39,736 bases of DNA from a virus, in the IMG/VR virus record IMGVR_UViG_3300009285_007455, positions 1 to 39,736 of that record; one strand, given 5' to 3'. Positions within the stretch are counted from its first letter, which is position 1; every line of letters begins with the position of its first letter. Both the position numbers and the translations under genes were made by a program. The notes under the pieces are model-generated. The model saw only the letters and a program-made list of their open reading frames with translations, was not told where the DNA came from and searched no databases. Below, in pieces: positions 3,984-39,626 of the stretch.

Positions 3984-5215
3984 AAATCGTCGAATTGAAG
4001 GCAGAGAACATCAAGAAGCTCGTGGCGGTAGAGATTAGGCCGGACGGGAACGTCGTCCAGATCACGGGGCGCAACGGGCAGGGCAAGACCAGCGTCCTGG
4101 ACTCTATCTGGTGGGCGCTCGGAGGAGGCGCCGCGGTCCAAGCCGAACCTATAAGGGAGGGGGAGAGGTTCGCGAAGATCACGCTGGACCTCGGAGACAT
4201 AATGGTGACCAGGACGTTCAAGAAAGACAAGGAGGGGGGGACCTCCTCGAGCCTGTTCGTGGAGGGGAGGGACGGGACAAAGTTCTCGTCTCCGCAAGCC
4301 GTCCTCGACGGCGTCCTCGGGAAGCTGACGTTCGACCCGCTCGAGTTCGCGAGGATGAAGCCTCGGGACCAATTCGACGTCGCCAAGACGTTCGTCTCCG
4401 GTTTCGACTTCGAGGCTTGCGAAGCAGAGAAGCAGGCCTGCTTCCAGAAGCGCGCTATCCTCTCCAGGCAGTCGAAGGAGAAGAAGGCGGCCGCATCCCA
4501 GGTAGTCGTCCCCGCAGGCCCTAAGGCGTTCACGGACGAGACGCCGATCCTCAACGAGATCTCGTTCGCGGACACGCATAACATGCAGATGTCGTCCAGG
4601 AAGTCTAACAGGGAGACCGCCTACCAGACCATCGCGAGGAACCGCGAAGAAGCCAAGAAGCTGCTGAATGAGGCGAATGAGCTGGAGGCGCAGATCTCAG
4701 AATCCGGCCCGCTCCCTGAACTCAAAGACGTGACGGAGATCATGAGGCGCCTAGCAGTGGCGAGGGACGGCAACGCGGCATGGAGGGCCGAGGCGTCGAG
4801 GACGACTCTCGAAGACGAGGCGGAGAACCTTGAGGGAGAAGCGCGTGCCATGACAGACAGGATGGCGGCGCTCGAGGAGGGCAAGAGGGCGGCGATAGCG
4901 GCCGCGACCCTCCCTATAGACGGCCTGTCGTTCGGGGACGGGTCCGTGACGCTCAGGGGCGTCCCGTTCGACCAGGCATCTGACGCCGAGAGGCTCAGGG
5001 CATCCGTGGCGATCGCGATGGCGCTGAACCCGAAACTCAGGGTTGTAAGAATACGAGACGGCTCGCTCCTTGATTCAACGAGCATGGGGCTCGTGGCCGA
5101 GATGGCCGAACAGAGGGACTGCCAGGTCTGGATTGAGAAGGTGGACGAGACAAGCTCCATCGGGTTCGTCGTGGAGGACGGGAGGCTCGCCGAGAAGAAG
5201 CCGGCGGCCGTTTGA
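3980..5215 (+). CDS. RecF/SMC-like ATP-binding protein
   Basis: A 411-residue ATPase with the N-terminal half-domain of the RecF/SbcC/SMC type. It starts KIVELKAENIKKLVAVEI and has a clear Walker A at residues 30-37 (GRNGQGKT) followed by SVLDSIWWALGGG. The middle (about 165-310) is helical, with coiled-coil segments around residues 215-235 and 270-300. The C-terminal lobe has ASDAERLRASVAIAMALNP (signature-like helix) and LRVVRIRDGSLLD, where a Walker B would be expected; the usual acidic pair is not clear. Phages often carry this family next to recT, and a role in end processing or recombination is likely. The stop overlaps the TTG of the next gene. Confidence 0.85.
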   Translation: MKIVELKAENIKKLVAVEIRPDGNVVQITGRNGQGKTSVLDSIWWALGGGAAVQAEPIREGERFAKITLDLGDIMVTRTFKKDKEGGTSSSLFVEGRDGTKFSSPQAVLDGVLGKLTFDPLEFARMKPRDQFDVAKTFVSGFDFEACEAEKQACFQKRAILSRQSKEKKAAASQVVVPAGPKAFTDETPILNEISFADTHNMQMSSRKSNRETAYQTIARNREEAKKLLNEANELEAQISESGPLPELKDVTEIMRRLAVARDGNAAWRAEASRTTLEDEAENLEGEARAMTDRMAALEEGKRAAIAAATLPIDGLSFGDGSVTLRGVPFDQASDAERLRASVAIAMALNPKLRVVRIRDGSLLDSTSMGLVAEMAEQRDCQVWIEKVDETSSIGFVVEDGRLAEKKPAAV

Positions 5216-5529
5216 GCGTCAGGGGGAAGGTCCAGGACGTCGGCCGGAAGGTCGAGTCCTGCCTGAAGGACTACCCGCAGACGCGCAACGACGACACGCT
5301 CCTGATCTGGAAGGTCTGGGAGGTATTTTACGGCATTGAAGGGTCGGTGACGCTCCGGCAGATGATGGAGCTCCCGTCGTTCGAGACTATCCGGAGGACA
5401 CGCGCCAAGATTCAGAACGACGACGGGAAGTATCTCCCGTCGGACGAGACCGTCAGGAAGCGCCGCGGCCTGGAACAGGAATGGAGGGATGCCATGCAGC
5501 TGGACATGTTCGGCAGCGGAGGTTCCTGA
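5212..5529 (+). CDS. Small hypothetical phage protein
   Basis: A 105-residue protein. No ATG or GTG is available near the 5' end, and the TTG at 5212 overlaps the previous TGA (TTGA), so this start is accepted. The sequence is helical, with LLIWKVWEVFYG and the segment from FETIRRTRAKIQND to YLPSDETVRKRRG, a pattern I associate with small phage DNA-binding-like proteins of unknown function. Its TGA shares one base with the ATG of the amidotransferase (TGATG), so it is co-translated with the modification cassette and could be an accessory to it. Confidence 0.6.
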   Translation: MSVRGKVQDVGRKVESCLKDYPQTRNDDTLLIWKVWEVFYGIEGSVTLRQMMELPSFETIRRTRAKIQNDDGKYLPSDETVRKRRGLEQEWRDAMQLDMFGSGGS

Positions 5530-6947
5530 TGTGCGCCATAGCCGGCGGACACGTCCAGCTCCTGAAGGTCGCGGCCGGCATCGAGGCCATGAGGCATAGG
5601 GGGCCGGACTCCGCCGCGACGGCCGAAGTGAACCAGATACTAAGCGTCGGCCACGCCCGCCTGTCCATCCTCGACCTCGACAGAAGGAGCGACCAACCAT
5701 TCCGCTACCGCGGGTGGTGGCTGATCTTCAACGGTGAGATCTGGAATTACAAGGCCTTAAGGCGCGAGCTCGAGGAGAGGGGCAAGTCGTTCTCCACTTC
5801 CGGCGACACGGAGGTGCTCGCGGCGGCGCTCTACGAGTGGGGTATAGACGGCGCCCTACCGAGGCTCGAGGGCATGTTCGCCTTCGCCTGGGTATCACCT
5901 CTTGGCACGTCGGTGGCCCTGGCCAGGGACAGGTTCGGGGAGGTCCCGCTCCATTATTCCCTGGACCCGTTCGCCTTCGCCTCTGAACGGAAGGGCCTCA
6001 TCGCCATGGGGGTGGGACCAGAGAAGATCTACGACCTCGGGCCGGGCTGTACCCTCCAGGCCCCTCGGGGGGGATGGGAGGTTTCCCGGTGGTATACTCT
6101 AGGGCTAGATGAGGCCGAGGAGACGATAGAGAAGGCCTCCGGTATCGTGTTAGGCTTGCTCAGGGCTGGTGTGGCGGAGAGGATCATCTCGGACGTCCCG
6201 ATATGCACGCTAGTCTCGGGTGGGATCGACTCGTCGATCATCCTCAAGCTCTTAAAGGAGCTCAGTCCCGGCATCGTGGCCTACACGGCCGTCCACAGGC
6301 CGATGTGCGGGGACCTCAAGAACTCCAGAGCCTTGTGCCGCGAGCTTGGGGTCGAATTGAGGGAGGTCCAGGTGCCTCTGCCTCGCCCGGAGGACCTCCA
6401 GGAGGTCGTCAGGATCATTGAGACGTCGAGCAAGGCGCAGGTCGAGATCGGGTGGGCCTGCACGAGGCTCGCCGACGCGATCAGGGCCGACGGGTTCAAG
6501 GTGACATTCTCCGGGGAGGGGTCCGACGAGCTCTGGGCCTCCTACGGGTTCGCCTACTACGGGATCGAGAGGGACGGCTGGCATGATTACAGGGTCCACC
6601 TTGTCGCGGAGCAGCACCGTAAGAACTTCGCGCGCTGCAACAAGGTGTTCATGTCCAGGGGGGTCGAGTGCCGCCTCCCGTTCCTCCACAGGCCGTTAGT
6701 GGAGTACGCGCTGTCACTCCCGCGGGACGCCGTCTCGTCCAGGAGGTCAAGGCCGAAGGAGGTCCTGCAGAGGGCGTGCTCCGGCCTGATCCCCGACTCC
6801 ATCGTCCGGCGGGCCAAGGTGGCCTTCCAGGACGGCATGGGGCTGAAGGACTCCATCGCGAGGTCCATCGAGAACCCAGCGGGGCTCTATAGGATGAAGT
6901 TTGAGGAGATATACGGAAAAAAATCACAGGAGGTGTTGCCGCTATGA
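5529..6947 (+). CDS. AsnB-type glutamine-dependent amidotransferase
   Basis: A 472-residue class II amidotransferase. ATG 5529 is chosen because it places Cys at position 2 (MCAIAGG), the Ntn nucleophile that releases ammonia from glutamine. The glutaminase half has MRHRGPDSA, GHARLSILDL, FNGEIWNY and SGDTEVL. The synthetase half has the pyrophosphate loop LVSGGIDSS, then SGEGSDELWASYG and the segment from ARCNKVFMSRGVECRLPFL, which match asparagine synthetase B. It is about 80 residues shorter than E. coli AsnB. The family activates a carboxylate with ATP and amidates it. Because the gene overlaps a CmoA-like gene and precedes a DNA methyltransferase, I infer that it amidates carboxymethylcytosine; ordinary asparagine synthesis remains an alternative. 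Confidence 0.9.
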   Translation: MCAIAGGHVQLLKVAAGIEAMRHRGPDSAATAEVNQILSVGHARLSILDLDRRSDQPFRYRGWWLIFNGEIWNYKALRRELEERGKSFSTSGDTEVLAAALYEWGIDGALPRLEGMFAFAWVSPLGTSVALARDRFGEVPLHYSLDPFAFASERKGLIAMGVGPEKIYDLGPGCTLQAPRGGWEVSRWYTLGLDEAEETIEKASGIVLGLLRAGVAERIISDVPICTLVSGGIDSSIILKLLKELSPGIVAYTAVHRPMCGDLKNSRALCRELGVELREVQVPLPRPEDLQEVVRIIETSSKAQVEIGWACTRLADAIRADGFKVTFSGEGSDELWASYGFAYYGIERDGWHDYRVHLVAEQHRKNFARCNKVFMSRGVECRLPFLHRPLVEYALSLPRDAVSSRRSRPKEVLQRACSGLIPDSIVRRAKVAFQDGMGLKDSIARSIENPAGLYRMKFEEIYGKKSQEVLPL

Positions 6948-7639
6948 CCACAGGAGCGCTGTTAAAGAGGGGAGAGGATGGCAGGGTAAGAGAGTTCAGC
7001 TTCGACACGATCAAGGACTTCGACCGCCACATCCACTTGTCGATCCCGAACTACGACGTCATGTTCGATTCGCTCCTTAAGGTGTCGGAGTACTTCATCG
7101 ACCCTGGCAGGACGATCTACGATATTGGGTGCTCTACCGGGCGCCTCCTCAAGACGCTCGCCGAGAAGTTTCCGACGCAGAGGATGATCGGGTTCGACTC
7201 CTCGGCGAACCTGCTTCCCCAGGACCACGACCATGGGAAGATCAGGTTCGTCCTGACCGACCTGAACCAGCCTCAGGCCTTCCCGTCGGCGTGCCTGGTG
7301 TTCTCGATCTTCACGCTCCAGTTCCTAAAAAAGGAGTTCAGGCCAGCCATCGTCCAGGCCATATTCGACGGCCTCCCTGTCGGCGGGGCGTTCATCATCG
7401 CGGAGAAGTCCTATGCCTCCGAGCCGCAGATGCAGGACGTCTTCACGAGCGCATATTACGACTACAAGGCCAAGACGTTCTCGGCCGAGGAGATCTTCAC
7501 CAAGGAGCGAGACCTCCGCCTCATCCTCCGGCCGCAGACCTCGTCGCAGAACAGGAACATGCTGTACCGTGCCGGTTTCAGCATCGTCGAGCCGTTCTAT
7601 AAATACTTCCAGTTTGAAGCATGCATTTGCATCAAGTAA
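6944..7639 (+). CDS. CmoA-like carboxy-SAM synthase
   Basis: A 231-residue SAM-dependent enzyme close in length to E. coli CmoA (247 aa), which converts SAM and prephenate to carboxy-SAM. Matches along the whole chain include IPNYDVMF (CmoA VPGYSNII), the SAM site IYDIGCSTG (57-65), the distinctive FTLQFL (123-128), GGAFIIAEK (147-155), YYDYKAKTFSAEEI (171-184) and the C-terminal AGF...YFQF. Arg189, Arg192 or Arg196 could play the part of the E. coli Arg that binds the Cx-SAM carboxylate; the alignment is off by one there. ATG 6944 overlaps the amidotransferase stop. No CmoB partner is present, so the product is most simply used by the methyltransferase 13 nt downstream. Confidence 0.82.
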   Translation: MTTGALLKRGEDGRVREFSFDTIKDFDRHIHLSIPNYDVMFDSLLKVSEYFIDPGRTIYDIGCSTGRLLKTLAEKFPTQRMIGFDSSANLLPQDHDHGKIRFVLTDLNQPQAFPSACLVFSIFTLQFLKKEFRPAIVQAIFDGLPVGGAFIIAEKSYASEPQMQDVFTSAYYDYKAKTFSAEEIFTKERDLRLILRPQTSSQNRNMLYRAGFSIVEPFYKYFQFEACICIK

Positions 7640-7652
7640 ATTAGGAGGCGAT

Positions 7653-8957
7653 ATGATTGACGGGAAATACACTGTGGTCAGCACGTTCAGCGGGTGCGGC
7701 GGGTCGTCAATGGGCTACAGGCTCGCGGGGTTTAAGGTCCTCGCCGCCAACGAGTTCATACCGATCGCCGCGGACACGTACGAGAGGAACTTCCCCGGCA
7801 CGCACGTGTTCAGGGAGGACATCAGGGCGCTAAATGCGGGGATGATCTTCGGCGTCACCGGCCTAAAAGAGGGGGAGCTTGACCTGCTCGACGGGTCGCC
7901 GCCCTGCGCGTCGTTCTCGACGTCGGGGAAGCGCGAGCAATCCTGGGGGAAGGTCAAGAGGTACAGCGAGACCACGCAGCGCGTCGACGACCTGTTCTTC
8001 GAGTACGTTCGGCTTATCGGACAGGTCCAGCCCAAGACGTTCGTAGCCGAGAACGTCGCCGGCATGGCCATCGGCGTCGCCAAGGCGGTATTCGACGAGG
8101 TGACGGAGCTCTTCAAGCGGCAGGGGTACAGGGTCGCGTGTCGGCGCCTGGAGTCTCAGTTCTTCGGCGTCCCGCAGAAGCGGAGGCGCCTGATCTGGGT
8201 CGGGGTCCGAGAGGACCTCTGCGCGGCCCGCGGGGTCGAGCCGTCTCACCCGAAGCCGCAGACGCGCCCTATCTCCTTCAGGGAGGCGACGGCCGACCTC
8301 GAGCTGACGACTGAGGACCTCGGGCCAGCCATGATGCGGGAGACGTCCGCGGACGGGAAGAAGGAGCTCGAATCATGGACGCTCGCGATGAAGATGAAGC
8401 CGGGTCAGGTCGGGTCCGACTACCACCCGAAAGGCCACTATTTCAACCTCGTCCGAGCCAGTTTTGACAAGCCCGTGCCGACGATCCTACAGATGCACGG
8501 CTCTATCCAGGGAGCAGGGGTCCTCCACCCTACGCAGATGCGGAAGCTTACTATAAAGGAGATCAAGCGCTGTTTCGGGTTTATGGACGACTTCGTCCTC
8601 CTCGGGGACTTCGCCCAGCAGTGGGAGAGGCTCGGCCGATGCGTCCCGCCGCCGATGATGAGGGCGATAGCCCTCCATATCAGGCACGTCGTACTCGACA
8701 AGATCTACGGCGTCGAGAACGACTACAGGCCGACGTTCTACGACCCCGACGATGCGAGCGGCCAGAACACCTTCAGCTTCCTCTCCGATGTCACTGAATT
8801 CAAGAGGATCAGGGAGTCGGACCAGCCTCTTGAGGCCTTGATAGCTGTCCGGGAGAACATCATGGCCGGCGTCACCGCCGGCGATTTAAGTGAGGAGCTC
8901 TCTGAGCTCGAGGAGGCCGGACTGTTCATCGACGACGCCGAGAAAAGCCATGGATAG
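7653..8957 (+). CDS. Cytosine-C5 DNA methyltransferase with Arg in motif X
   Basis: A 434-residue C5-cytosine methyltransferase. ATG 7653 has an AGGAGG site 6 nt upstream; an in-frame start at 7413 lies inside the previous gene. Motifs in order: I, FSGCGGSSMG (12-21); IV, SPPC with catalytic Cys85 (82-85); VI, ENV (133-135); VIII, VPQKRRRL (173-180); a short target-recognition region (about 185-290); IX, MRKLTIKEIKRCFGF (296-310); X, LGRCVPPPM (327-335). The normal GN-x-V of motif X is G-Arg329-C-V. The C-terminal 85 residues are an extra helical tail. The neighbouring Cx-SAM synthase suggests that it transfers carboxymethyl rather than methyl. No restriction endonuclease is adjacent. Confidence 0.92.
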   Translation: MIDGKYTVVSTFSGCGGSSMGYRLAGFKVLAANEFIPIAADTYERNFPGTHVFREDIRALNAGMIFGVTGLKEGELDLLDGSPPCASFSTSGKREQSWGKVKRYSETTQRVDDLFFEYVRLIGQVQPKTFVAENVAGMAIGVAKAVFDEVTELFKRQGYRVACRRLESQFFGVPQKRRRLIWVGVREDLCAARGVEPSHPKPQTRPISFREATADLELTTEDLGPAMMRETSADGKKELESWTLAMKMKPGQVGSDYHPKGHYFNLVRASFDKPVPTILQMHGSIQGAGVLHPTQMRKLTIKEIKRCFGFMDDFVLLGDFAQQWERLGRCVPPPMMRAIALHIRHVVLDKIYGVENDYRPTFYDPDDASGQNTFSFLSDVTEFKRIRESDQPLEALIAVRENIMAGVTAGDLSEELSELEEAGLFIDDAEKSHG

Positions 8958-8981: not shown

Positions 8982-9434
8982 ATGGTACTATCTATGATAC
9001 CCATCCTATTCGTTGGTCAGGCGCCGAACTCGAAGAAGTCGGAGGATGCTATTCGGAAGAGACCGTCTTTAACACTGACCGGATCGTCGGGGAAAAGGCT
9101 CGCAAGCGCGTGCGGGGTCGGTTATATGGAGTGGCTGCGCCGCTCCGAGCGCGTGAACCTCCTCGACTTTTACCCCGGCGGCGCTTTCCCTAAGAGGCCG
9201 GCGCGCGACTCCGCGGAGAGGCTTGTCGATACCTTCGCAGGGAAGGGTGTCGTCTTCTTAGGTAAAACCGTGGCCTCCTGCTTCCCCTTCGGCCCGATGC
9301 GCATCCTCCGCTGGTATAGTTTCGGCCTGTTCAGCGCTTCCGTGGTCCCGCACCCCTCAGGCCTTAACAGGTGGTGGAACGACCACTCGAATGCCGCCGC
9401 CGCCAGGGCCTTCCTGGCCGGATCATTCCTATGA
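8982..9434 (+). CDS. Uracil-DNA glycosylase superfamily-like protein
   Basis: A 150-residue protein with the outline of family 4-type uracil-DNA glycosylases: ILFVGQAPN (motif A region), LTGSSGKRLASACG, VNLLDFYPG, VVFLGKTVASC and VVPHPSGLNRWWN, with HPSGL as the motif B loop. It is shorter than cellular enzymes (about 200 aa), and the usual EAPG acidic residue is Gln here, so activity is uncertain. ATG 8982 is used; ATG 8994, four codons later, is equally possible because neither has a good ribosome-binding site and a 15-codon frame (8950-8997) ends on it. Lying just after the cytosine-modification cassette, it could remove deamination products or act on odd bases. The stop overlaps the next ATG. 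Confidence 0.65.
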   Translation: MVLSMIPILFVGQAPNSKKSEDAIRKRPSLTLTGSSGKRLASACGVGYMEWLRRSERVNLLDFYPGGAFPKRPARDSAERLVDTFAGKGVVFLGKTVASCFPFGPMRILRWYSFGLFSASVVPHPSGLNRWWNDHSNAAAARAFLAGSFL

Positions 9435-10264
9435 CATACCGCAGGTCACCTGCCTTCCAGTTCTACCCGCTCGACTTCGTCGGGGACATGAACGTCCGCA
9501 TGATGACAAACCAAGAGCGAGGCTTCTACATCATGCTGCTCTGCCACTGTTGGCTGGAGGGCTCGTTACCAGATGACGCGGCCAGCCTTGCGATGATCGT
9601 CGGCGAGGACCTGGCCGAGTTTAAGGCTTCCTGGCCCAGGATCTCGAGGTGCTTCCAGGTCAAGGAGGGGAGGCTCATACAGAAGCGGCTGGAAATAGAG
9701 AGGGAAAACCAGAGGAAATTTTCAAAAAAACAATCAAGGAACGCTGAAAAGAGGTGGGAGAAACAAGCTTTACCGTCGGAGCCAAGGTATAGCCAAAAAG
9801 ATGCCATGGCAGAGCCAAAGGTATGCTCTTCATCTTCATCTTCATCTTCATCTTCATCTAACAAAGAAGCTAAAGAAAGGATAGCACTCGCCACAAAAGG
9901 CGCGGCGAGTGCCACAGAAGGCGAACCAAAGGCGGACTTTACCTTAGCCGTAGAGTATCTGATGGAAACTTGGAAGGCCGGGCCCGGGAGCGGCCAGAGA
10001 TACCCGTTCTCGGGGATCGACGGCAAGGCGGTGAAGCGGATCGTCGGGAATTACGGCCTGGTATACTTCAAGGCGCTGTGGTCCGAGTTCCTTGCCAGGG
10101 ACTGGAAGTGGATCAACAACACGAACCAGACGGTAACCCCCCCAAAAGACCTTCGCGTGTTCGAGTCGAAGCTCGTCGAGCTCCTCGAACACGGCGGGTA
10201 TAAGAACAGAATCCCGAAGATAACGAGCGACCTCGGCCTGAACATGCTTAAGATGAAAAGGTAA
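9431..10264 (+). CDS. DUF1376-type phage replication initiation protein
   Basis: A 277-residue protein. ATG 9431 is favoured by the ATGA overlap with the previous gene, and the DUF1376 motif begins at once: FQFYPLDFVGD, then MTNQERGFYIMLLCHCWLEGSLP. After this winged-helix domain (about 5-95) comes a charged, low-complexity linker with an 11-Ser run. The C-terminal domain (about 172-262; FTLAVEYLMETWK through LVYFKALWSEFLARDWKWI) looks like a replisome-organiser or helicase-loader module. Such proteins bind the phage origin and recruit host helicase. No helicase or polymerase gene is present, so host replication proteins are probably used. Confidence 0.75.
   Translation: MTYRRSPAFQFYPLDFVGDMNVRMMTNQERGFYIMLLCHCWLEGSLPDDAASLAMIVGEDLAEFKASWPRISRCFQVKEGRLIQKRLEIERENQRKFSKKQSRNAEKRWEKQALPSEPRYSQKDAMAEPKVCSSSSSSSSSSSNKEAKERIALATKGAASATEGEPKADFTLAVEYLMETWKAGPGSGQRYPFSGIDGKAVKRIVGNYGLVYFKALWSEFLARDWKWINNTNQTVTPPKDLRVFESKLVELLEHGGYKNRIPKITSDLGLNMLKMKR
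9827..9859 (+). repeat. TCTTCA hexanucleotide repeat inside replication gene
   Basis: Five perfect TCTTCA units (9827-9856) plus TCT encode a run of 11 Ser residues in the linker of the replication protein. Hexamer gain or loss keeps the frame, so the repeat would change linker length and not inactivate the gene. Confidence 0.9.
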
Positions 10265-10268
10265 CGAT

Positions 10269-10697
10269 ATGTTAGATACCGGACCGGTGATACTGACATT
10301 CCACAGGATTTATCCGTCTCTGAATAGAATCTTACGGATGAGCAGATGGGAGAGGGTGAGGTTGAAACGAGCGTTTATGGACGCGTGCCGGTGGGAGTTG
10401 AGGGCAGTCGTCCCGTACAGATTCCCAGGGAAGGTGAGGATCGAGATAAACCTGTGCTTCAAGGATAGGCTGGAGCGACCCAGAGACCCAGACAACTACC
10501 AACCGAAATGGCTCCTCGACTGCCTTGTTAAGGAGGGTGTTATAAAGGACGATAGTTGGAAAATAGTCGGGGGTGGAGCAGACGTGAGGTTTATATCGGG
10601 TGATCCACGCGATCACGTCGACGTGAGAATAACAGACGCGCGAGGGGACCAAATGGAACAGCTAACAGAAGGACCGGATAACAAGCCGCTGGCGTGA
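10269..10697 (+). CDS. rusA: RusA-like Holliday junction resolvase
   Basis: A 142-residue protein matching RusA in length and motifs: RPRDPDNYQPKWLLDCLV followed by VIKDDSW. By comparison with E. coli RusA, Asp73, Asp75 and Asp94 are the likely metal ligands; the 19-residue spacing from the second to the third Asp is as in RusA, and Lys80 is near the expected Lys. The enzyme cuts four-way junctions and would resolve recombination or replication branches before packaging. ATG 10269 follows the previous stop by 4 nt. The stop overlaps a GTG start downstream. The last 25 residues are probably disordered. Confidence 0.85.
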   Translation: MLDTGPVILTFHRIYPSLNRILRMSRWERVRLKRAFMDACRWELRAVVPYRFPGKVRIEINLCFKDRLERPRDPDNYQPKWLLDCLVKEGVIKDDSWKIVGGGADVRFISGDPRDHVDVRITDARGDQMEQLTEGPDNKPLA

Positions 10698-38871: not shown

Positions 38872-39024
38872 ATGGAAAGTCCGAAGTATGTTTCTAGAGT
38901 GTGGCCGGGGGCAAACACCGGTGCTTGTGAGCACTGTTTCTGCTCGACGATGATGGCCAGCGACAGACGGCATGAAGTCTGCTGCATGTGCCAGACGAGG
39001 CGGCTTGCTATAACGATGCTGTGA
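38872..39024 (+). CDS. Small Cys-rich protein (50 aa)
   Basis: A 50-residue protein. ATG 38872 has GGAAGGAGG about 8 nt upstream, better than the earlier in-frame ATG at 38815. [20 protein letters not shown] then MCQTRR gives a CxxCxC...CCxxC zinc cluster. Its TGA overlaps the GTG of the right pentapeptide gene. No family recognised. Confidence 0.6.
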
Positions 39025-39626
39025 ACAAGGGGGCAAAATTGAAAACGAAATTATCTATCAAGACCTGGGGTGGAACTCTGCTTTTTGAATATGAAGCGGG
39101 GGACAACACTTTAAAGCGAACCCTAGAAGCCGCCGTTAAATCCAGGGCCGACCTGTCCGGGGCCGACCTGTCCGGGGCCGACCTCTCCAGGGCCAACCTG
39201 TTCGGGGCCAACCTGTCCGGGGCCGACCTGTCCGGGGCCGACCTCTCCAGGGCCAACCTCTCCAGGGCCGACCTGTTCGGGGCCTACCTCTCCAGGGCCA
39301 ACCTCTCCAGGGCCAACCTGTTCGGGGCCAACCTCTCCAGGGCCAACCTGTTCGGGGCCAACCTGTCCGGGGCCGACCTGTTCGGGGCCGACCTCTCCAG
39401 GGCCAAAGGCTTAAAAGACATTCTCCAAATCGGCCCAATAGGTTCAAGGAAATCATATCTCCTGGCCTTGAAACTCGACGACGGAAAAATTGAGATAAAG
39501 ACAGGATGCTTTTCAGGAACCATTGGGGAATTTGAAGAACAGGTAAGGGAAAAACACAAAGACAACGAGCATGGGGAGGCATACAAGATGGCGGTGTCGT
39601 TAATCAAATTGAGGTTCGGGCTGTGA
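39021..39626 (+). CDS. Pentapeptide-repeat protein, right copy
   Basis: A 201-residue paralogue of the protein at 74. GTG 39021 overlaps the previous stop; similarity to the left copy begins at this codon. The N-terminal ~40 residues and C-terminal ~75 residues are nearly identical to the left copy (for example [20 protein letters not shown]), while the array has 17 instead of 14 pentapeptides, with a different order of Ser/Phe and Arg/Gly variants. The upstream gene is unrelated to that of the left copy, so the gene moves as a unit. Role unknown; DNA mimicry is one possibility. Confidence 0.85.
39144..39398 (+). repeat. 15-bp tandem repeat array (pentapeptide coding), right
   Basis: Seventeen 15-bp units with the same three codon variants as the left array (CTC TCC AGG; CTG TCC GGG; CTG TTC GGG). 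One unit has TAC in place of GAC/AAC. Confidence 0.9.

Follow-up and report, generated by a model that had tools for sequence, protein, structure and literature searches.

Carboxymethylation of cytosine by phage S-B43

A CmoA-CmoX-CmoY system was recently described in Synechococcus phage S-B43 (Yang et al., Nat Commun, 7 Dec 2025; PMC12783734). In that phage, CmoA makes carboxy-SAM (Cx-SAM), and CmoX forms 5-carboxymethylcytosine (5cxmC) from Cx-SAM, the only cofactor that the wild-type enzyme (SpCmoX; crystal structure 8YF3) accepts. CmoY, a homologue of asparagine synthetase, joins 5cxmC to glycine as an amide; the modified base was detected in phage DNA by mass spectrometry, and DNA containing 5cxmC was shown in vitro to resist HhaI (PMC12783734). 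A survey in the same paper, which used an SPPC motif and an arginine at SpCmoX position 350 as criteria (asparagine at this position being the SAM-type residue), returned 5,615 CmoX candidates and 2,251 ligases, with a ParBc partner common near CmoX. The second-largest ligase cluster has a glutaminase domain, and glutamine-derived ammonia was predicted as its substrate, but no soluble protein was obtained; further ligase clusters with unknown amines exist (PMC12783734). In the literature searched we found neither demonstrated activity for a glutaminase-type CmoY ligase nor 5-carbamoylmethyl-2'-deoxycytidine as a demonstrated product.

A candidate glutaminase-type cassette

The window, that is, the whole 39,736-base viral record analysed here, has matches to terminase, portal, major head protein and endolysin, and likewise encodes RecE/RecT-like and RusA-like genes. 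Reading the ORFs directly placed genes for an AsnB-type ligase, CmoA and CmoX next to one another in that order (Table 1) and confirmed the spacing given in a preliminary description of the sequence: the CmoA start overlaps the AsnB-like stop by 4 nt, and CmoX starts 13 nt past the CmoA stop. The AsnB-like ATG itself overlaps the stop of an upstream ORF (5212-5529), and the protein begins MCAIAGG, with Cys2 as the catalytic residue. Longer program-listed starts at 5481 (AsnB-like) and 7413 (CmoX) were rejected as upstream extensions, homology beginning at 5529 and 7653.

Table 1 Features of the predicted modification cassette in the window.
Feature	Coordinates	Strand	Basis
Glutaminase-type CmoY ligase (AsnB-like, 472 aa)	5529-6947	+	Pfam GATase_6 and Asn_synthase, AF2 model, site residues
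CmoA, predicted carboxy-SAM synthase (231 aa)	6944-7639	+	Best NCBIfam family, PDB sequence and fold matches
CmoX, predicted DNA cytosine C5-carboxymethyltransferase (434 aa)	7653-8957	+	8YF3 as best solved relative
GGAGG, ribosome-binding-like site before the AsnB-like gene	5518-5522	+	Sequence
AGGAGG, ribosome-binding-like site before CmoX	7643-7648	+	Sequence

The three genes very probably work together as a single DNA-hypermodification cassette of the published CmoA-CmoX-CmoY type, here in the form with a glutaminase-type ligase, which would amidate with ammonia. CmoA would convert SAM and host prephenate to Cx-SAM. CmoX would flip cytosine from duplex DNA, attack C6 with Cys85 and, with Arg329 holding Cx-SAM, pass the carboxymethyl group of this cofactor on to C5. 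The AsnB-type CmoY would then adenylate the carboxylate of 5cxmC, and ammonia freed from glutamine by its N-terminal domain would attack that carboxylate to give 5-carbamoylmethylcytosine, most likely the final base. Evasion of host restriction would be the likely benefit. Cx-SAM synthesis and carboxymethyl transfer are proven for the S-B43 homologues of the window proteins (34% and 41% identical, respectively), and the S-B43 ligase has been shown to form an amide between 5cxmC and glycine at the expense of ATP; that the three proteins here act likewise, that ammonia is the amine and that the phage benefits are what we infer.

As in S-B43 (L047), a putative Cx-SAM synthase, C5-carboxymethyltransferase and AMP-forming amide ligase lie in one operon, and SPPC, the arginine at position 350 and a K-x3-E signature in the ligase are common to both. 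The two loci differ in gene order (ligase-CmoA-CmoX in the window versus CmoA-CmoY-CmoX), and the window ligase, unlike SpCmoY, has an N-terminal glutaminase domain and shares hardly any detectable sequence identity with it. The preliminary description had proposed the same logic, from Cx-SAM to 5cxmC to an amide. This matches the S-B43 pathway, whose marker residues the window proteins carry, and because both that pathway and the ammonia prediction are published (PMC12783734), the proposal agrees with existing work; the novelty that it implied falls away for the same reason. The carboxymethylcytosine core was already known from S-B43 in December 2025, and the amide-capping branch was predicted there.

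The ligase and its amine

The window ligase matches Pfam GATase_6 (9e-34) and Asn_synthase (1e-38), and the AMP-forming Asn_synthase domain adjoins CmoX/CmoA. Its AF2 model (pLDDT 87.5) best matches E. coli AsnB (1CT9) across both domains (TM 0.84). The two proteins, 30% identical, share the two-domain fold, the glutaminase site and the PP-loop, and the glutaminase residues C2, R44, N68, E70 and D93 as well as SGGIDSS are all present in the window ligase. They differ in context, the window ligase sitting among DNA-modification genes, and in one segment, in which Thr-Thr-Ile-Arg of AsnB is replaced by Ala-Gln-Val-Glu (T322, T323 and R325 become A303, Q304 and E306). This Thr-Thr-x-Arg segment was reportedly found by Schnizer et al. 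in 1999 to be essential in E. coli AsnB.

Arg325 was rejected as a universal asparagine-synthetase marker; most cellular homologues compared also lack it, and a K-x3-E comparison, defined in this analysis rather than published, was therefore used. The signature (K302-x3-E306 in the window), which the proven SpCmoY also has, occurs in 34 of the 36 glutaminase-type ligases and in 20 of the 24 short ones (with the lysine in 23 of the 24), versus none of 18 cellular AsnB-like proteins; E. coli AsnB has V and R at the two positions. Those 18 ordinary AsnB-like proteins, 26-37% identical to the window ligase, came from a scan of bacterial genome contigs with that ligase, which found no cassette. On the evidence of this one scan, of low sensitivity, the phage ligases appear not to be simply borrowed host AsnB at close range.

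Amidation with glutamine-derived ammonia, predicted in PMC12783734 and here, draws on the intact glutaminase, K-x3-E and genetic linkage. Alternatively, CmoA and CmoX could act as proposed while the ligase uses some other amine in place of ammonia, such as an amino acid or hydroxylamine, to give a larger amide. SpCmoY, after all, makes a glycine amide and ligase clusters with unknown amines exist (PMC12783734), and the window ligase is structurally related to TsnB9 (7YLZ), a hydroxyamidotransferase. However, the window ligase keeps all of the glutaminase residues tested, whereas SpCmoY has none, and an intact glutaminase fused to a synthetase normally supplies ammonia, which makes a different amine rather unlikely.

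Second, the ligase could be an asparagine synthetase in its own right, or another cellular-type amidotransferase, that stands by chance beside CmoA-CmoX, so that the DNA would stay at 5cxmC. It scores just above the cut-off of the asparagine synthase family TIGR01536 (268.5 versus 267.1), and no ligase was detected nearby in 67 of 125 CmoX loci. It also keeps the acidic pocket SGEGSDE (residues 328-334; SGExxDE in asparagine synthetases), which binds the aspartyl amino group in human ASNS (PMC6748925), so asparagine synthesis stays compatible with the residues alone. The K-x3-E signature argues against such independence, as does Glu306 in place of E. coli Arg325, SpCmoY also having glutamate there. 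So does the company that these ligases keep: when relatives were sought with the ligase alone, 25 of the 26 found had both a CmoX and a CmoA homologue within the fetched stretch, and we consider a chance neighbour improbable.

Linkage and gene order

Among new loci found with CmoX alone, 74 of 77 had a CmoA homologue, and ParBc was near CmoX in 76 of 125 loci, with the cluster assigned by eye. Streptomyces phage TurkishDelight (gp123-125, L046) resembles the window in having adjacent genes for CmoX (43% identical), a glutaminase-type ligase (46%) and a CmoA homologue (25%). Its order is CmoX-ligase-CmoA, and two ParB-like genes lie upstream, whereas no ParB_N match was found in the window. This cassette presumably belongs to the published second ligase cluster (A0A7T0Q3R0).

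Almost all glutaminase-type loci have the order CmoX-ligase-CmoA, and ligase-CmoA-CmoX was unique to the window among the loci examined. The nearest CmoA (49%) and CmoX (51%) in our sample both come from L027, whose ligase is of the short S-B43 type, and the ligases nearest to that of the window are those of L001 (53%), L002 (51%) and TurkishDelight (46%). The window is thus unusual both in its gene order and in pairing L027-like CmoA-CmoX with a TurkishDelight-like ligase. These identities suggest that a ligase exchange between cassettes is likely, if not firmly established, since a quick CmoX tree joins the window and L027 at an SH-aLRT of 87, under the 95 mark. Taking chemistry and exchange together, we think it probable that the cassette yields 5-carbamoylmethyl-2'-deoxycytidine, through a relative of asparagine synthetase acting on a base carboxylate within double-stranded DNA, and that the ligase module is exchangeable among related CmoA-CmoX pairs, so that one carboxymethyl handle would be capped differently across phages. 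Glutaminase-type ligases are the second-largest ligase cluster around 5cxmC, a natural handle found in 2025. To their amide branch the window adds another candidate, with a complete active site, a mass prediction of dC + 57 Da and a mutable K302-x3-E306.

One close relative of the ligase counts against the cassette reading in that it stands where neither CmoX nor CmoA was found. This ligase (L002:4989-6413, IMGVR_UViG_3300005323_000039) is 51% identical to that of the window and keeps K-x3-E, and no C5-methyltransferase or CmoA match was found on its 115-kb contig. Its neighbours include a radical-SAM protein at 6815-8245 and, at 9641-10297, a homologue of thymidylate synthase, and a base might here receive its carboxylate in another way.

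CmoA and CmoX

The best NCBIfam family of the window CmoA is CmoA (TIGR00740, 7e-28). Its 97.9 bits fall below the cut-off of 193.3, as does the score of the proven SpCmoA (115.6). Its best solved relatives by sequence and fold are 4GEK, 4IWN and 1IM8 (Z 27 over 212-213 residues; AF2 model pLDDT 85.7), with the SAM methyltransferase CysG close behind in fold (Z 26). E. coli CmoA and H. influenzae YecO, to which it is 26% identical, share its fold, most SAM-contact residues and the glutamate at the E164 position, but the window lacks their CmoB partner.

In E. coli CmoA, Arg199 binds the carboxylate of Cx-SAM (PMC3663124). The corresponding residue in the window is Glu188, a further point against our preferred explanation; Arg192 follows four residues, or one helical turn, later (E. 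coli 203), at the position of an arginine in the experimentally active S-B43 CmoA. Arg199 was rejected as a CmoA marker, being absent from the proven SpCmoA too. Altogether, 42 CmoA sequences fell into three classes, with a basic residue at 199, an arginine at 203 or neither, the third having mostly aspartate where Glu164 stands. Homologues of this third class (at L004, L006, L008-L013 and L050) are common CmoX partners, for which Cx-SAM synthesis is only putative.

The window CmoX matches Pfam DNA_methylase (1e-49). Its best solved relative is SpCmoX (8YF3, E 1e-76), ahead of the next group, DNMT1 (2e-22), by about 54 orders of magnitude. The SPPC motif lies at residues 82-85, with Cys85 as the predicted catalytic residue, Arg329 aligns with the cofactor-selecting R350 of SpCmoX, and a C-terminal tail covers about residues 351-434. 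The protein thus carries both published CmoX hallmarks and has a CmoA encoded nearby. A precedent for the arginine is the engineered M.MpeI N374K, in which a basic residue replacing the conserved asparagine lets a C5-methyltransferase use Cx-SAM (PMC12783734), although that residue is an introduced lysine and the arginine of the window CmoX is natural.

The arginine column was invariant in all aligned methyltransferases that adjoin both CmoA and a glutaminase-type ligase, and an unrelated methyltransferase (L044) has asparagine there. Across 125 related methyltransferase loci, most of them found with search patterns that left out the arginine region, 118 had both the arginine and a nearby CmoA, 5 had neither and 2 were mixed, an association (Fisher 1.5e-7) that calls for care, given the common ancestry of the rows and the shortness of some contigs. 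That CmoX is instead an ordinary 5-methylcytosine methyltransferase using SAM, with a generic SAM methyltransferase as the CmoA-like protein and unrelated neighbours, would fit the generic family names that all three match in Pfam and PHROGs (methyltransferase, DNA methylase, asparagine synthase) but is very hard to credit given Arg329 where the SAM-type residue is N, the use of Cx-SAM only by wild-type SpCmoX, the occurrence of that N in L091 and L133, on whose 10-11-kb contigs no CmoA match was found, and the best match of the CmoA-like protein to CmoA by family and fold. The natural Arg/Asn contrast, correlated with the presence of CmoA, offers a sequence readout of methylating versus carboxymethylating phage C5-methyltransferases.

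Several relatives depart from this pattern. L091:675-1670 and L133:1347-2354 encode SPPC C5-methyltransferases nested in the CmoX tree, with asparagine replacing the Cx-SAM arginine, and a natural reversion to methylation is possible. Three SpCmoX-like proteins (about 39%; L041, L042 and L043) keep SPPC and have leucine in the Arg350 column, with no CmoA found. At L039 and L040, CmoX homologues adjoining CmoA keep the arginine and have GFPC in place of SPPC; the published SPPC filter would overlook them. Staphylococcus phage vB-SscS-F1 (L049:4977-7495) encodes CmoA, a short ligase and a very divergent methyltransferase with GSPC and a glycine in the arginine column, on a long branch whose alignment is unsure. 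L102 has two CmoX-type ORFs on a 15-kb contig on which no CmoA match was found.

Other features of the viral record

The GC dinucleotide stands at 0.89 observed/expected in the window, uninformative as a depletion signal. A reading of the window as a defence system was rejected, PADLOC giving only generic methyltransferase and ATPase models. Its large terminase has a single weak phage match. CmoX is followed after 24 nt by a gene (8982-9434) for a protein of the uracil-DNA-glycosylase superfamily (PF03167, 4e-6), of which no homologue was found in the neighbourhood of related cassettes. No terminal repeats were found in the record, and the proteins encoded at its two ends (8-634 and 38988-39626) match the same PHROGs set (7713, 923, 20532 and others), so that members of one duplicated gene family lie at either end.
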